A DNA stretch of 41,141 nucleotides, taken from positions 1 to 41,141 of the forward strand of contig JAPDJO010000012.1 of the NCBI GenBank assembly GCA_029259115.1, written 5' to 3'. Shown here in pieces: positions 1,108-15,485 of this stretch. The position numbers and the translations under genes are program-made. Under the pieces are notes generated by a model. It saw only the letters and a list, made by a program, of their open reading frames with translations. It searched no databases and had not been told where the DNA came from. How positions within the stretch are numbered: the stretch's first letter is position 1; each line of letters starts with the position of its first letter. This DNA comes from Thermoplasmatota archaeon. Lineage in GTDB: Archaea; Thermoplasmatota; E2; DHVEG-1; B18-G2.

Positions 1108-1707
1108 CTACTCAAGGAAAACTATATCTGATGAACATGAAAAGGGTATGTAAAGATCTATTACCTTGGTTATTCCACTTGGTGGTATTATACAGATCTT
1201 TATGGAGTCTTCAGCGCGGATATGGATGTGGGGTGGTAATTCTATCGCTATAAAGAATTTATCCCTCTGATTTACTACACCATTTTCAAGTATTGACTTA
1301 TCTTTATCCACAATAACAATTAAACCAAAACCAGATTCTTTCCACACCCGACCCTCGAATAGAGAGCCGCCACTATGTAAAATAGCACATCCACTATAGC
1401 CCATTAACATTAGATCTTTACCATTGTCTATTCCTATTTTCACATCAGACATGTTTAGTCTACCATCAAAAAGCAGTTTTGCCAGAATCAGTATCCTATC
1501 TATTTCTCTCTTTTCTCCTATACCGCTGTACCTTCCTATTACATCTTCTATTTTAATGTAGGTTATGACGTCCTGTAGGACGTTATCAAGTAGCTTTTCT
1601 GCGTCATCATCGATATATCCGGAAGTGTCGAAGTAGATGGTAGATGCACCACTAGCTATCAGTATAGCAGCAAGAATGGGTATTCCTATTGCCTGTACAC
1701 TACCAAT
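1108..1707 (-). CDS. Archaellin-like class III signal protein; start codon non-canonical
   Basis: The in-frame ATG at 1452 gives only 114 residues, but the frame is open for another 85 codons. The added part encodes GSVQAIGIPILAAILIASGA followed by FDTSGYIDDDA, which matches the N-terminal hydrophobic helix and the 'NTAGYLQ' turn of archaellins. Further on, an EIDRILILAKLL...MSDVKIGIDNG strand, GFGLIVIVDKD, and a final IRAEDSIKICIIPPSG...IP...DIVFLE all fit archaellin outer-domain order. There is no ATG, GTG or TTG in frame after the upstream TGA. GAGGTGGTGA (about 1717-1726) sits like a Shine-Dalgarno site ten bases before ATT at 1707-1705, so I placed the start there. The alternative is a one-base slip after GTG-AAA-CGA (see findings). 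No arl/fla motor genes are nearby. Archaellins assemble into the archaellum outside the cell after prepilin peptidase cleavage. Confidence 0.68.
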   Translation of the reverse strand: MGSVQAIGIPILAAILIASGASTIYFDTSGYIDDDAEKLLDNVLQDVITYIKIEDVIGRYSGIGEKREIDRILILAKLLFDGRLNMSDVKIGIDNGKDLMLMGYSGCAILHSGGSLFEGRVWKESGFGLIVIVDKDKSILENGVVNQRDKFFIAIELPPHIHIRAEDSIKICIIPPSGITKVIDLYIPFSCSSDIVFLE

Positions 1708-1731
1708 ATTATTCGTTTCACCACCTCATTT

Positions 1732-1751
1732 GCATTGCATTTATGCAATGC
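1732..1751. promoter_or_regulatory. Palindromic operator candidate, copy 1
   Basis: The sequence gcattgcatttatgcaatgc has perfect 9-base inverted arms around TT. It lies between the probable TATA box of the archaellin-like gene (reverse strand, about 1751-1760) and its start, a position where a bound protein would block transcription. A near-identical copy lies 65 bases away. The adjacent winged-helix/PAS gene is the obvious candidate binder; this is inference. Confidence 0.6.
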
Positions 1752-1796
1752 TATATAATACTTTGTAACTCATATTATATATAATTTTCCAATTTC

Positions 1797-1816
1797 GCAA
1801 TTCATTTATGCAATGC
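1797..1816. promoter_or_regulatory. Palindromic operator candidate, copy 2
   Basis: The sequence gcaattcatttatgcaatgc matches copy 1 at 18 of 20 positions, including an identical 14-base CATTTATGCAATGC. Its left arm is degenerate. It lies ten bases upstream of the TATA box (1826-1834) of the winged-helix/PAS gene, a typical position for an archaeal activator or autoregulatory site. Confidence 0.58.
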
Positions 1817-1825
1817 ACAATACAG

Positions 1826-1834
1826 ATAAATATA
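1826..1834 (+). promoter_or_regulatory. TATA box of the winged-helix/PAS gene
   Basis: ATAAATATA lies 27-35 bases before the ATG at 1861, with no Shine-Dalgarno between, so the transcript probably starts at or very near the start codon (leaderless). Confidence 0.5.
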
Positions 1835-1860: not shown

Positions 1861-2406
1861 ATGAAAATAGACTATCATAGAGAATTAGAAAAGGTCCTTG
1901 AAATAATCAGGAAACATCCAAAAGGTTGCACGATAAGGGAGATATCAGAAGAACTCGGTATAAATAGAAATGCCGTCGCTAAGTACTTAGATGTCCTGCA
2001 TGTTGCTGGACAGGTTGAGATGAGAAGGATAGGGCCAGCAAAGGTATATTTTCCATCAAAATCTGTACCCATATCTATGTTGTTTGACTTTTCAGAAGAA
2101 TTTATAGTAATTGTAGATGAGGGTTTTGTAACGATAGAGGCAAATATGCCTTTTTTAAGATATATTAATGTGACAGATAAGAGAGAAGTGATAGGAAAAC
2201 CGATCACAGAGTTACCTATAGTTGGTTCCTTTCCTAGAATGATGGAGAATATAAGAAAAGCATTAGAGTACCATCAGATTTTAGAAGACAAATTTGTTTA
2301 CGACAAGAATGACGGATCAAAGCCCGAAAAGTTTAGAGCAAAATTTATCCCAACTACATTCAATAATGGGGAAAAAGGTGTCGCTCTTCTGATTAAGAAG
2401 CTTTAA
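1861..2406 (+). CDS. Winged-helix transcription regulator with C-terminal PAS-like domain
   Basis: This is a 181-residue, two-part protein. Residues about 8-65 form a winged-helix DNA-binding domain (CTIREISEELGINRNAVAKYL is the helix-turn-helix, followed by a wing ending near KVYFP). Residues about 75-181 look like a PAS fold: FSEEFIVIVDEGFVTIEANMPF, the 'GKPITELP' turn and a KFRAKFIPT...GVALLIKKL strand pair. This architecture is common among one-component regulators of euryarchaea, where the PAS part senses a ligand or redox state; no cofactor-binding His or Cys stands out. It is divergent from the archaellin-like gene, and two copies of a 20-base palindrome lie between them, suggesting local control and autoregulation. 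The ATG is preceded by a TATA box at leaderless distance. Confidence 0.8.
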   Translation: MKIDYHRELEKVLEIIRKHPKGCTIREISEELGINRNAVAKYLDVLHVAGQVEMRRIGPAKVYFPSKSVPISMLFDFSEEFIVIVDEGFVTIEANMPFLRYINVTDKREVIGKPITELPIVGSFPRMMENIRKALEYHQILEDKFVYDKNDGSKPEKFRAKFIPTTFNNGEKGVALLIKKL

Positions 2407-4094: not shown

Positions 4095-4406
4095 TTATCT
4101 TATTTCTTTCTTGAGATCTTTAAGGGTTGTCACCAAATCATCGAGTGTGGACTCTATTGTTCCAAGAGTTTCATGTATCTTTTCAGTGGTTATAGCACCA
4201 CTCCTAGAAGGTTCTATTAGACCTTCTTGTTCCAAGACTCTAAGCGAGTATCTCACGGCATGCTGCGGAAGGCCCGTCTTCTGGGATAGTTTTATTATTC
4301 CAATTGGTTCGTTCTCCATCACAGCTTTTAACACTTTAAGATGCCTCTCTAGAACTTTAACGTCAGATATTGTTCCATCAAGTAAGGGAGATCTTCTCCT
4401 TTCCAT
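4095..4406 (-). CDS. Winged-helix regulator with C-terminal coiled coil
   Basis: From the ATG at 4406 this encodes 103 residues. GGAGGTGG ends four bases upstream, so this start is preferred over an earlier ATG at 4433. Residues about 15-70 form a winged helix (GIIKLSQKTGLPQHAVRYSL as the recognition unit, then VLEQEGLIEPSRSGAITT as the wing). The rest (IHETLGTIESTLDDLVTTLKDLKKEI) is heptad-patterned and probably a dimerising coiled coil. Small proteins of this type are common in euryarchaea and are annotated only as predicted transcriptional regulators. The reverse-strand TATATACC near 4437-4444 is a plausible TATA box. Target unknown. Confidence 0.72.
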   Translation of the reverse strand: MERRRSPLLDGTISDVKVLERHLKVLKAVMENEPIGIIKLSQKTGLPQHAVRYSLRVLEQEGLIEPSRSGAITTEKIHETLGTIESTLDDLVTTLKDLKKEIR

Positions 4407-4545
4407 ACACCACCTCCATAATTGTAATAACATTTTTGGTATATAATGTTTATTGTTATCATGGGTCTAAGTGGTATGTAATCTTACAACTAGATAACAT
4501 TTGTACAATAACTCGTTTATAAGCGCTCCATCAAAAATAGGATTG

Positions 4546-12624: not shown

Positions 12625-13305
12625 TCACTCTCCCTTTAAAAGAGCTATCACTCTTTCCGTTAACCCATATGTGTGAGCTTCTCTCTCTATGAGCCTAATA
12701 GCTCTCTCTATCTTTTGAATAGCATCAGGATTCCCATCTACCCATATCCTACCATTTCTACCAACAAATATTCTACAGTTCGTATATCTCTTTAATGCCG
12801 TTATCATGGATGCATTTTTCCCTATTATCCTCGGAACTTTTGTTGGCTCTGTCTCAATTAAGGTTCCCCCATTTATCTTGTGAAGACCTCTATCCTTTAA
12901 TGTTATCTGAACTTTGTCCGGATCTCCAGCCGATTTAATTTTTGCTAGAATGACGTCACCATAGTTGAGAAACTTTGATGTATTTCCTATCTCTACAAAC
13001 CAAGGAACCTCATTTATATGTAGAAAAGCGGGATATATTGAGTTGATATCAACCATCCAAACAGCAGCCCCAACCTCTATAACTATACCAACAACAACAT
13101 CTCCAGCTTTTGGTTCGTATTTTCCTCGAAGTGGTGTGATAGTTACAACTCCATCCTTCACGTTTAGTATCCCTAGTCTCTCTGCGTATATCTTACCATC
13201 CTCAACAAATGTTCCTGTCCCTGGCTTGAGTTTTTTTGCATCACCTATAAGTTGGCTTGGAAGGACAAGCTCCCTTGTCTCTTTCTTCTCTTTAGGCATA
13301 TCCAT
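12625..13305 (-). CDS. rrp4: Exosome RNA-binding cap subunit Rrp4
   Basis: This 226-residue cap protein has an N-terminal domain, an S1 domain (about residues 65-140, with [20 protein letters not shown]) and a KH domain (about 150-215, with [20 protein letters not shown] as the GxxG loop). It sits on the Rrp41/Rrp42 ring and guides RNA into the channel. I place the start at ATG 13305, which shares one base with the SBDS stop (TGATG); a TTG directly before it and an ATG two codons later are alternatives. It is in the middle of the psmA-SBDS-rrp4-rrp41-rrp42 run. Confidence 0.95.
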
Positions 13306-14000
13306 CAACTCAATAACTTTGTTTCAACATTTCCCTTGGTAATATCATTAATCTTATCATAAAACTCAGTTTGCAATCCTGCAGGTATCTGAATGATACC
13401 TACCCATGATCCATCCGATTGCCACTCCTCTTTTATCAACGTACCAAAACTTCTGACTAAGCCATATGCTTTTCCTATATGTGTAGCCGGTATCTTGACA
13501 GATATTCTCACCTGTTCCATGGATATTGGTAAGATAGGTCTTATCTTCTCAACAACTTCCTTTACCTGTTGATCTACAGGTTTGAATGGATCTATATGAA
13601 CTCCAGCCTCTTCTATCGCTAATTCTATCCTCTTTCTTGGATGCGGAGCCTTTGTCCTTGGATCCATAGCATTCTTAGCTATTATCTCAACTATCTGATT
13701 GAATTTTCTTTTCTGCATCTCATGCCTCTGCTCGGTGGTTAGTTGGATATTTCCCCTCAATATAATCTGCTTTGCAACCTCTGCTATATCTGTCGTTCCA
13801 AAACATTTCTGTATCGCTTCCTCAGATGCTCTCTCTCCTTTTCTCGCATCCTTGAAAACCTCATCCACTGCTAGGCTTGATAGTATATCAATCTCTTTTC
13901 CATCTATCAGATCTGCAGCTGCTTTCGGGTCAACGAGTATCTCGAAGTGATTATCTCCGATGGTTAATCTTGCTATAACAGCCTTTTCCAGGCTGGTCAC
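13305..14000 (-). CDS. sdo1: Ribosome maturation protein SBDS/Sdo1
   Basis: This 231-residue three-domain protein has the N-terminal FYSH domain (VIARLTIGDNHFEILVDP), a central helical part (FNQIVEIIAKNAMDPRTKAPHPRKRI is the family signature region), and a C-terminal ferredoxin-like domain (VRISVKIPATHIGKAYGLVRSFG). In archaea and eukaryotes it acts in large-subunit maturation, helping to release the anti-association factor aIF6. The start is GTG at 14000, with GGAGGAGTG upstream inside the psmA end. The stop touches rrp4. The first conserved pair, psmA then SBDS, is standard for archaeal exosome operons. Confidence 0.95.
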   Translation of the reverse strand: MTSLEKAVIARLTIGDNHFEILVDPKAAADLIDGKEIDILSSLAVDEVFKDARKGERASEEAIQKCFGTTDIAEVAKQIILRGNIQLTTEQRHEMQKRKFNQIVEIIAKNAMDPRTKAPHPRKRIELAIEEAGVHIDPFKPVDQQVKEVVEKIRPILPISMEQVRISVKIPATHIGKAYGLVRSFGTLIKEEWQSDGSWVGIIQIPAGLQTEFYDKINDITKGNVETKLLS

Positions 14001-14001
14001 C

Positions 14002-14724
14002 CTACACTCCTCCCAAAGCCTTCTTTATGTACTCCTTTGTTTCCTCAGGTGAAAGCTTTCTAAACTTCCTAGAAGAGTCGACAATTCCTATTTCTATAGC
14101 ATCTGGATTTATCTTACCTTCCACACCCTTACTCAAGGCTTTTAGGCCAAGTATTATCGCTTCATCCTTATCTATGTCTTCCTTGTAATGCTTTTCAAAG
14201 TAAGCTATAACGCCATCTCTTCCTGCTCCCTCGCTTGTCGCTTTGTACTCTATCATAGCTCCAGATGGATCGGTTGAGAATAATCTTGGACCGCTATCAT
14301 CTACGCCTGCTATAAGCAAGGCTGTTCCAAAAGGTCTCACTCCCCCATATTGAGTATAGGTCTGTTTAAAGTCACATATCCTTTTAACTAAGGTCTTGAT
14401 CTCTATCTTTCTGTTGAATGTTATTTCATTAATCTGGGCATCGACTCTTGCTCTATCAACCAAGACCCTTGCATCAGCTACTAACCCAGAGGTAGCACAT
14501 CCTATATGATCATCTATCTGAAACATCTTCTCTATAGACTGAGGTTCTATCAGGCGAGAGGTTATCCTCTTATCGACTATCAGAACAACGCCATCCCTAT
14601 ACTTCAGCCCTACAGTAGTTGTTCCTCTCTTTACAGCCTCTCTTGCATACTCAACTTGAAATAGCCTTCCATCTGGAGAAAATACCGTTATCGCTCTGTC
14701 GTATGCCATATTTGATGGTTGCAT
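14002..14724 (-). CDS. psmA: Proteasome subunit alpha
   Basis: This 240-residue alpha subunit has the family signature [21 protein letters not shown] at its N-terminus, then [41 protein letters not shown], and [17 protein letters not shown]. It forms the outer rings of the 20S core, opened by the PAN ATPase. I chose ATG 14724 because AGGTGA ends eight bases before it; the GTG at 14736 lies inside that Shine-Dalgarno region. It is the first gene of the minus-strand exosome superoperon, with a TATA-like AAAGTATATA about 50 bases upstream. Confidence 0.97.
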
Positions 14725-14769
14725 ATCCTTAATCACCTCTCAAACTCTACCAGAAATATGTAATCTAGG

Positions 14770-14780
14770 TATATACTTTT
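14770..14780 (-). promoter_or_regulatory. TATA box of the psmA/exosome operon
   Basis: On the reverse strand AAAAGTATATA lies about 46-56 bases before the psmA ATG, leaving a leader of some 20-25 bases that carries the AGGTGA ribosome site. The element overlaps the tail of the intergenic region just past the nrdG stop. Confidence 0.45.
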
Positions 14781-14786
14781 TGCAGG

Positions 14787-15485
14787 TTATGCCCTAACTA
14801 CAACCTCCTTTATATACCTTTTGCACTCTAGAGATATCTCTCTCAAAAAATCTCTCTCATATGGCTTCACTTTTCTCAACTCTTTGCTCATCGCATTCTC
14901 TGGATTGAATTGTTGTATGGCAAATCTCTTAGCTGGCGATAAGAACTTGGATATTTCTATTACATCTCTAGCGGTGAGAAATGTAGGAACTACCGTTGTT
15001 CTGAACTCATAATCTAAACCTGAATTTTTTATTGTATCTATGCTCTTTTCTATCCTTTTAATATCTACCCTCACGCCTGCCAACCTGCTGTATATCTCTT
15101 TTTCAAGGGGAGCCTTCACATCCATAGCTATGTAATCCACGAGCCCTTTGTCTATGAGGTGGGATAATTTGTCTGGATTGTATCCGTTAGTGTCTATCTT
15201 GATTTTCATACCTATCTCCTTCAGTCTTCTGCATAGATTTTCAAGATCCTTAAACAGTGTAGGCTCTCCACCTGTTATGACCACGCCATCGATGAAATCT
15301 GAGTTTTCAACAAGATATTTCTCTATCTCCTTGTAATCTATATCTGGATATTTATCTGGATTTAAAATCAAACCGTAGTTATGACACATTGGGCATCTAA
15401 AGTTGCAATTCGGAAGAAAAAGAACGGATGTTATGTTTCCGTCCCAGTCAACCAGAGATGTTTTTATAAAGCCTTTTATTCCCAT
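14787..15485 (-). CDS. nrdG: Anaerobic ribonucleotide reductase activating protein, radical SAM
   Basis: This 232-residue protein has C27-x3-C31-x2-C34 (NCNFRCPMCHNY), which ligates the 4Fe-4S cluster for S-adenosylmethionine cleavage. TGGEPTLF, IDTNGYNPD and DYIAMDVKAP follow, all radical SAM core marks. It would generate the glycyl radical on NrdD. The frame is open back to a GTG at 15539 that overlaps the nrdD stop. That extension crosses a GC-rich hairpin, and the ATG at 15485 has GGTGAT close upstream, so I use 15485. It lies directly downstream of nrdD. The family also includes activases of other glycyl radical enzymes, but the neighbour makes NrdG the clear choice. Confidence 0.92.
   Translation of the reverse strand: MGIKGFIKTSLVDWDGNITSVLFLPNCNFRCPMCHNYGLILNPDKYPDIDYKEIEKYLVENSDFIDGVVITGGEPTLFKDLENLCRRLKEIGMKIKIDTNGYNPDKLSHLIDKGLVDYIAMDVKAPLEKEIYSRLAGVRVDIKRIEKSIDTIKNSGLDYEFRTTVVPTFLTARDVIEISKFLSPAKRFAIQQFNPENAMSKELRKVKPYERDFLREISLECKRYIKEVVVRA

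Follow-up and report, generated by a model that had tools for sequence, protein, structure and literature searches.

Archaeal regulators of the Lrp family and similar proteins are autoregulated, with operators in the promoter region common to divergent targets. The locus described here, where a predicted winged-helix/PAS regulator diverges from an archaellin-like gene, is like such Lrp-type autoregulators in having operators in a shared promoter region and in its predicted autoregulation. It differs from them in protein family, motif and architecture, since two operators at a fixed spacing of six helical turns flank a single TATA box, and the second of them lies between both promoters. The Lrp family of archaeal regulators is reviewed in PMC2995911.

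Regulators of archaellum genes offer a second comparison. EarA, an activator, works through short repeats of the TACATA type that precede the BRE of the arl operon (PMC10665913), and ArnR and ArnR1 of Sulfolobus are one-component helix-turn-helix membrane proteins acting on the arlB promoter (PMC13286277). In contrast to the short sites of EarA, the sites here are 24-bp inverted repeats, with one copy lying over the predicted start of transcription. None was found in this genome's arl cluster, including upstream of the operon's BRE. The regulator is a one-component helix-turn-helix protein like ArnR and ArnR1, which are tied to archaellum expression; unlike these membrane proteins it has a PAS domain, and it is predicted mainly to autoregulate and to repress its neighbour.

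In a sister family the same promoter faces a candidate structured RNA, and only this RNA can be set beside sRNA162 of Methanosarcina mazei, which is reported to target cis- and trans-encoded mRNAs and to be connected with the gene of a transcription factor (PMC3510493). That connection is the shared feature of the two archaeal RNAs; unlike the methanogen RNA, the one described here belongs to Thermoplasmata, is divergent from a PAS regulator and has no relevant Rfam match in the ten loci tested.

The proposed operator pair and its promoters

The window is the whole stretch of DNA analysed, 41,141 nucleotides of a contig from a Thermoplasmatota archaeon. The features discussed are the following.

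1108..1713, minus strand: archaellin-like gene, about 201 aa (PF01917, E 1.1e-7)
1730..1753, no strand: operator A, 24 bp, TTGCATTGCATTTATGCAATGCTA (PWM 27.5)
1732-1751: site A 20-mer, GCATTGCATTTATGCAATGC, inside operator A
1778-1785, minus strand: divergent TATA box, serving the archaellin-like gene, ATTATATA (TATATAAT as read on the plus strand), between sites A and B
about 1786-1790: BRE-like GGAAA, upstream of the divergent TATA box
1795..1818, no strand: operator B, 24 bp, TCGCAATTCATTTATGCAATGCAC (PWM 23.7), between both TATA boxes
1797-1816: site B 20-mer, GCAATTCATTTATGCAATGC, inside operator B
1825-1832, plus strand: TATA-like box, GATAAATA, in front of the regulator gene; most relatives have CATAAATA
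1861..2406, plus strand: 181-aa transcriptional regulator with winged-helix and PAS domains, proposed to bind A and B
4095-4433: a second winged-helix protein

The first-pass annotation of this DNA had described A and B as paired 20-base palindromes. Their positions, their 18/20 identity and the 65 bp from centre to centre hold, but the symmetry is imperfect in both: site A is self-complementary at 18/20 positions and site B at only 14/20. Taken alone, B is not a good palindrome but a copy of A, and the pair is therefore better named two copies of one operator. No match of this kind arose in 100 shuffles of the window. Comparison with 28 orthologous loci puts the predicted functional unit at 24 bp, an inverted repeat with the consensus TTGCnnnGCAnnnnTGCnnnGCAA.

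One site had been placed downstream of the reverse TATA box and the other just upstream of the forward TATA box, and the coordinates agree. From the centre of the reverse TATA box, the near edge of site A is 28 bp away in the window (median over 29 loci, 24 bp) and the edge of site B 13 bp (median 15 bp). Site B ends 10 bp from the centre of the forward TATA box (median 14 bp), which in turn precedes the start codon of the regulator by 32 bp; because the median for this last distance is 25 bp, most relatives probably make a regulator mRNA with almost no leader. On the divergent transcript, operator A spans about +1 to +24/+25, beginning where transcription is predicted to start; site B is placed between the two BREs, near both.

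Conservation of the predicted operators with the regulator

The comparison covered 29 regulator loci, namely the window and 28 orthologous loci of related Thermoplasmata metagenome-assembled genomes (MAGs) from about 20 genera. The same upstream arrangement recurs in them: site B and the relative position of the divergent TATA box are kept in 29/29, site A is clear in 27 and disrupted in the other two, and the centres lie 63 bp apart in 22. The distances to both TATA boxes hardly vary.

A position weight matrix trained solely on these 29 loci was then applied, at a cut-off above 16 bits within 350 bp upstream of the gene, to 55 distant family members outside the training set. Fifteen carry a site, where the remainder of those loci predicts 0.13 (p about 3e-26) and shuffling gives 2 in 5500, so that the shared inverted repeat is found upstream of family members in 29/29 training and 15/55 independent loci. 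The carriers belong to Aenigmatarchaeota, Woesearchaeota, records labelled Bathyarchaeota, Methanoculleus, Methanofollis and Methanoregula. The genes adjoining these distant members are unrelated and include no archaellins; because the motif is kept beside such unrelated neighbours, it tracks the regulator. A recognisable site is missing in 40 of the 55, and therefore the recognition sequence or the autoregulation is not universal. In two of the loci examined, from Methanoculleus/Methanomicrobiales, strong operator-like sites also occur at a distance from the regulator gene (31.2 bits at position 2198 of L116 and 18.8 bits at position 5354 of L104) and are possible further targets.

Pattern searches of the window's own genome (G000; 1.4 Mb in 94 contigs) returned no third copy within 3 mismatches of the 20-mer or of the 24-mer consensus, and A and B are its two top-scoring sites. 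No other strong copies were found in this genome. A looser 24-mer search gave 29 places. Apart from A and B, just two of them exceed a score of 16 (C9:32546 with 19.8 and C7:25470 with 17.5); one has no clear gene around it and the other falls within a gene start. About one such score is expected by chance in 1.4 Mb, and a wider regulon in this genome is not convincing. The genome-wide search, which had been proposed as a check for sites beside other appendage or sensor genes, met no other strong site.

The winged-helix/PAS regulator

The N-terminal part of the regulator matches HTH_24 (1.8e-6) and HTH_IclR (2.7e-6) in Pfam. In the family alignment its winged helix comprises a strongly conserved helix, NRN(S/A)VAKYLD (NRNxVAKYLD), and a wing, GPAKV(F/Y), with N35, R36, N37, V39, A40, K41, Y42, L43 and D44 as well as G58, P59, A60, K61 and V62 invariant. 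At the C-terminus, the alignment profile matches PAS/LOV structures (2pr5 at 7e-6) and one relative matches TIGR00229 sensory_box at 7.6e-22; the PAS_9 match of residues 81-169 (E 1.4e-4) is below the Pfam cut-off taken alone. Both predicted domains assign the protein to the winged-helix/PAS one-component regulators.

Matches to the regulator occur in 31 of 59 related genomes, named records of the family include the Thermoplasmata MAGs SG8-52-3 and SM1-50, and the regulator was not found in the two same-genus MAGs searched (70% and 86% complete). The open-access literature yielded no characterised member of this family. The next gene to the right encodes a tryptophanyl-tRNA synthetase.

The archaellin-like gene and the archaellum cluster

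The divergent gene of the window has an archaellin domain, its PF01917 match being above the cut-off, and a predicted archaellin fold: the best Foldseek matches of its AlphaFold model are archaellins (5ya6, rmsd 2.3), at a mean pLDDT of 70 with a poorly modelled N-terminus. In the putative class III signal peptide region, the window reads NNIG-SVQAIG and the relative G003 MNNIG-STGII; the glycine is present, and the basic residue expected before the cleavage glycine is absent. No in-frame ATG, GTG or TTG lies near the 5' end, the first being at 1452, and the reading frame lacks the standard start of an intact gene. The apparent start is an ACG at 1713-1711 on the minus strand, after a good Shine-Dalgarno-like GAGGTGGTGA; G003 has an ATG at this place, and both G003 and G004 have ATG starts near it. 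The ACG may be a rare start codon, a sign of decay or an assembly error, and the target may thus be decayed or misassembled.

An archaellin-like gene is found opposite the regulator in only three of the 29 loci, all from the window's family (G000, G003 and G004). The same genome has a complete-looking archaellum cluster on contig C2, with true archaellins, genes resembling ArlF/G/H/I/J and a 194-aa paralogue of the window gene. No 24-bp site was found in this cluster (L144, 19 kb) or in the G022 and G003 regions. In the sister family, archaellin relatives sit elsewhere, and the motif is absent from those examined. The archaellum cluster also holds a 611-aa coiled-coil protein with PAS-like ends (L144, G000:C2:31000-50000, about 13085-14920).

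Proposed regulation and alternative explanations

A and B very probably form the operator pair of the adjacent winged-helix/PAS one-component regulator, which would thereby control itself. Site conservation, the fixed geometry and the co-occurrence of motif and regulator were computed directly; the binding, the regulatory signs and the signal are what we infer. From its symmetry, each 24-bp inverted repeat would take one dimer. On site A, a dimer would block or hold RNA polymerase and stop initiation or escape at the divergent gene, so that, judging by position, the divergent output would be repressed, whether the archaellin-like gene in the window or the structured RNA unit in the sister family. 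From site B, near both BREs, the regulator could tune its own promoter, either as an activator through TFB recruitment or as a repressor. The 63-bp spacing, six helical turns (65 bp in the window), would set the dimers on about the same face of the DNA around the divergent TATA box, an arrangement that would favour cooperation between them. The cue sensed by the PAS domain is presumably a ligand or a redox change.

In the 29 loci and into other phyla the motif goes with the regulator, as would be expected of a one-component regulator that controls its own gene. Binding of its own operators and autoregulation are accordingly well-supported predictions, and the earlier proposals that a single dimeric regulator, the PAS protein, binds both sites and adjusts its own expression are borne out to that extent, the motif preceding the regulator gene in all 29 loci and in distant members. 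It is very unlikely that a different regulator, encoded elsewhere, binds the sites and controls both genes. The window does encode another winged-helix protein, and the binder of A and B is a prediction, but a foreign regulator would not predict that the motif co-occurs with this family across phyla beside unrelated genes. About as unlikely is that site A is no DNA operator but acts in the divergent mRNA, as a 5' UTR hairpin: once transcribed, it can form an 8-bp hairpin just ahead of the Shine-Dalgarno-like sequence, but the fold is no better than that of shuffled sequences (z -0.43), which speaks against an RNA hairpin. The motif recurs at site B, which lies upstream of both promoters and is part of neither transcript, and in distant relatives it precedes the regulator.

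As to what the pair controls, the first-pass annotation proposed repression of the archaellin-like gene and, more broadly, a sensory switch for surface appendages. Repression of the divergent gene is likely, and plausible because site A sits at the predicted transcription start, but an archaellin neighbour is confined to the three loci. It is improbable that the protein serves as a repressor dedicated to surface filaments, under sensor control and separate from the known arl regulators. The archaellin fold of the divergent gene in its three genomes and the paralogue within the arl cluster speak for it; the 26 operator pairs that face something else, the siteless arl cluster in a genome with no other strong site, the distant members that keep the motif beside no archaellins and the lack of a standard start codon in the window gene all speak against it. 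The appendage reading is at most a special case at family level.

The pair of sites is, then, real and conserved, and is predicted to serve as the operators of a PAS regulator under its own control. It supplies an operator sequence and, for a PAS-type one-component family found in several archaeal phyla, a regulon that can be tested. The hairpin RNA of the sister lineage is the more novel element.

A candidate regulatory RNA in the sister family

In the other 26 loci, the same promoter faces a region with neither an archaellin nor any large conserved ORF. Nearly all of them have conserved blocks there, ending in a hairpin, GAGGTACCTC ... GCATCCCATCTCTCC ... GAGGTACCTC. This conserved GAGGUACCUC hairpin, with a C-rich, anti-Shine-Dalgarno-like loop, lies roughly 200-380 nt from the divergent promoter (for example at G042:C126:7971-8033, and likewise in L007 and other sister-family loci). 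In the stem, 91.9% of cells are paired and 7 of 12 pairs have changed on both sides; none of 500 shuffles reaches its covariation score. A covariance model built from these loci matches 26 relatives at E <1e-8, nearly all beside the regulator, a number that shows locus-specificity rather than independent discovery, as most matches are training sequences. One match, in G038, lies close to the end of a contig, and no regulator was found there. Matches in the window's family are not significant (best E 0.018 in G001 and 0.04 in the window's own genome). Near-matches to the complement of the C-rich loop in five related genomes fall in non-coding or unclear places or at ordinary gene starts.

The sister-family unit carries a conserved structure and may well be a regulatory RNA, the alternatives being a small-protein mRNA or both; as such it is a candidate for a family of regulatory RNAs among uncultured archaea of sediments. 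We tentatively consider, as a possibility somewhat short of even, that regulatory RNA is the usual output of the PAS-regulator module in this order and that the archaellin-like gene in the window's family represents an output swap. On that reading, a unit of roughly 350 nt ends in the covarying GAGGUACCUC hairpin, its C-rich GCAUCCCAUCUCUCC loop could pair with Shine-Dalgarno regions, and the same promoter and operators would drive a duplicated archaellin-like gene in the window's family. The locus is a case where regulator, operators and promoter are kept and the gene they would control changes from family to family. No clear orthologues occur in families outside f1 and f2, and the swap may have gone in either direction.

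Short ORFs after a Shine-Dalgarno-like GGTGA occur just past the divergent promoter (L006-L031), for instance MKxLITxSVVTSTKRDLYNPH... and MKSFIYRSVTVL...KLGGV, and they include a conserved GGGGGAG block. These ORFs are alike within genera and differ between genera. A further conserved, non-coding-looking block, GGCGGAGAGATGGGATTGC, recurs in related genomes (L180, L183 and L186).
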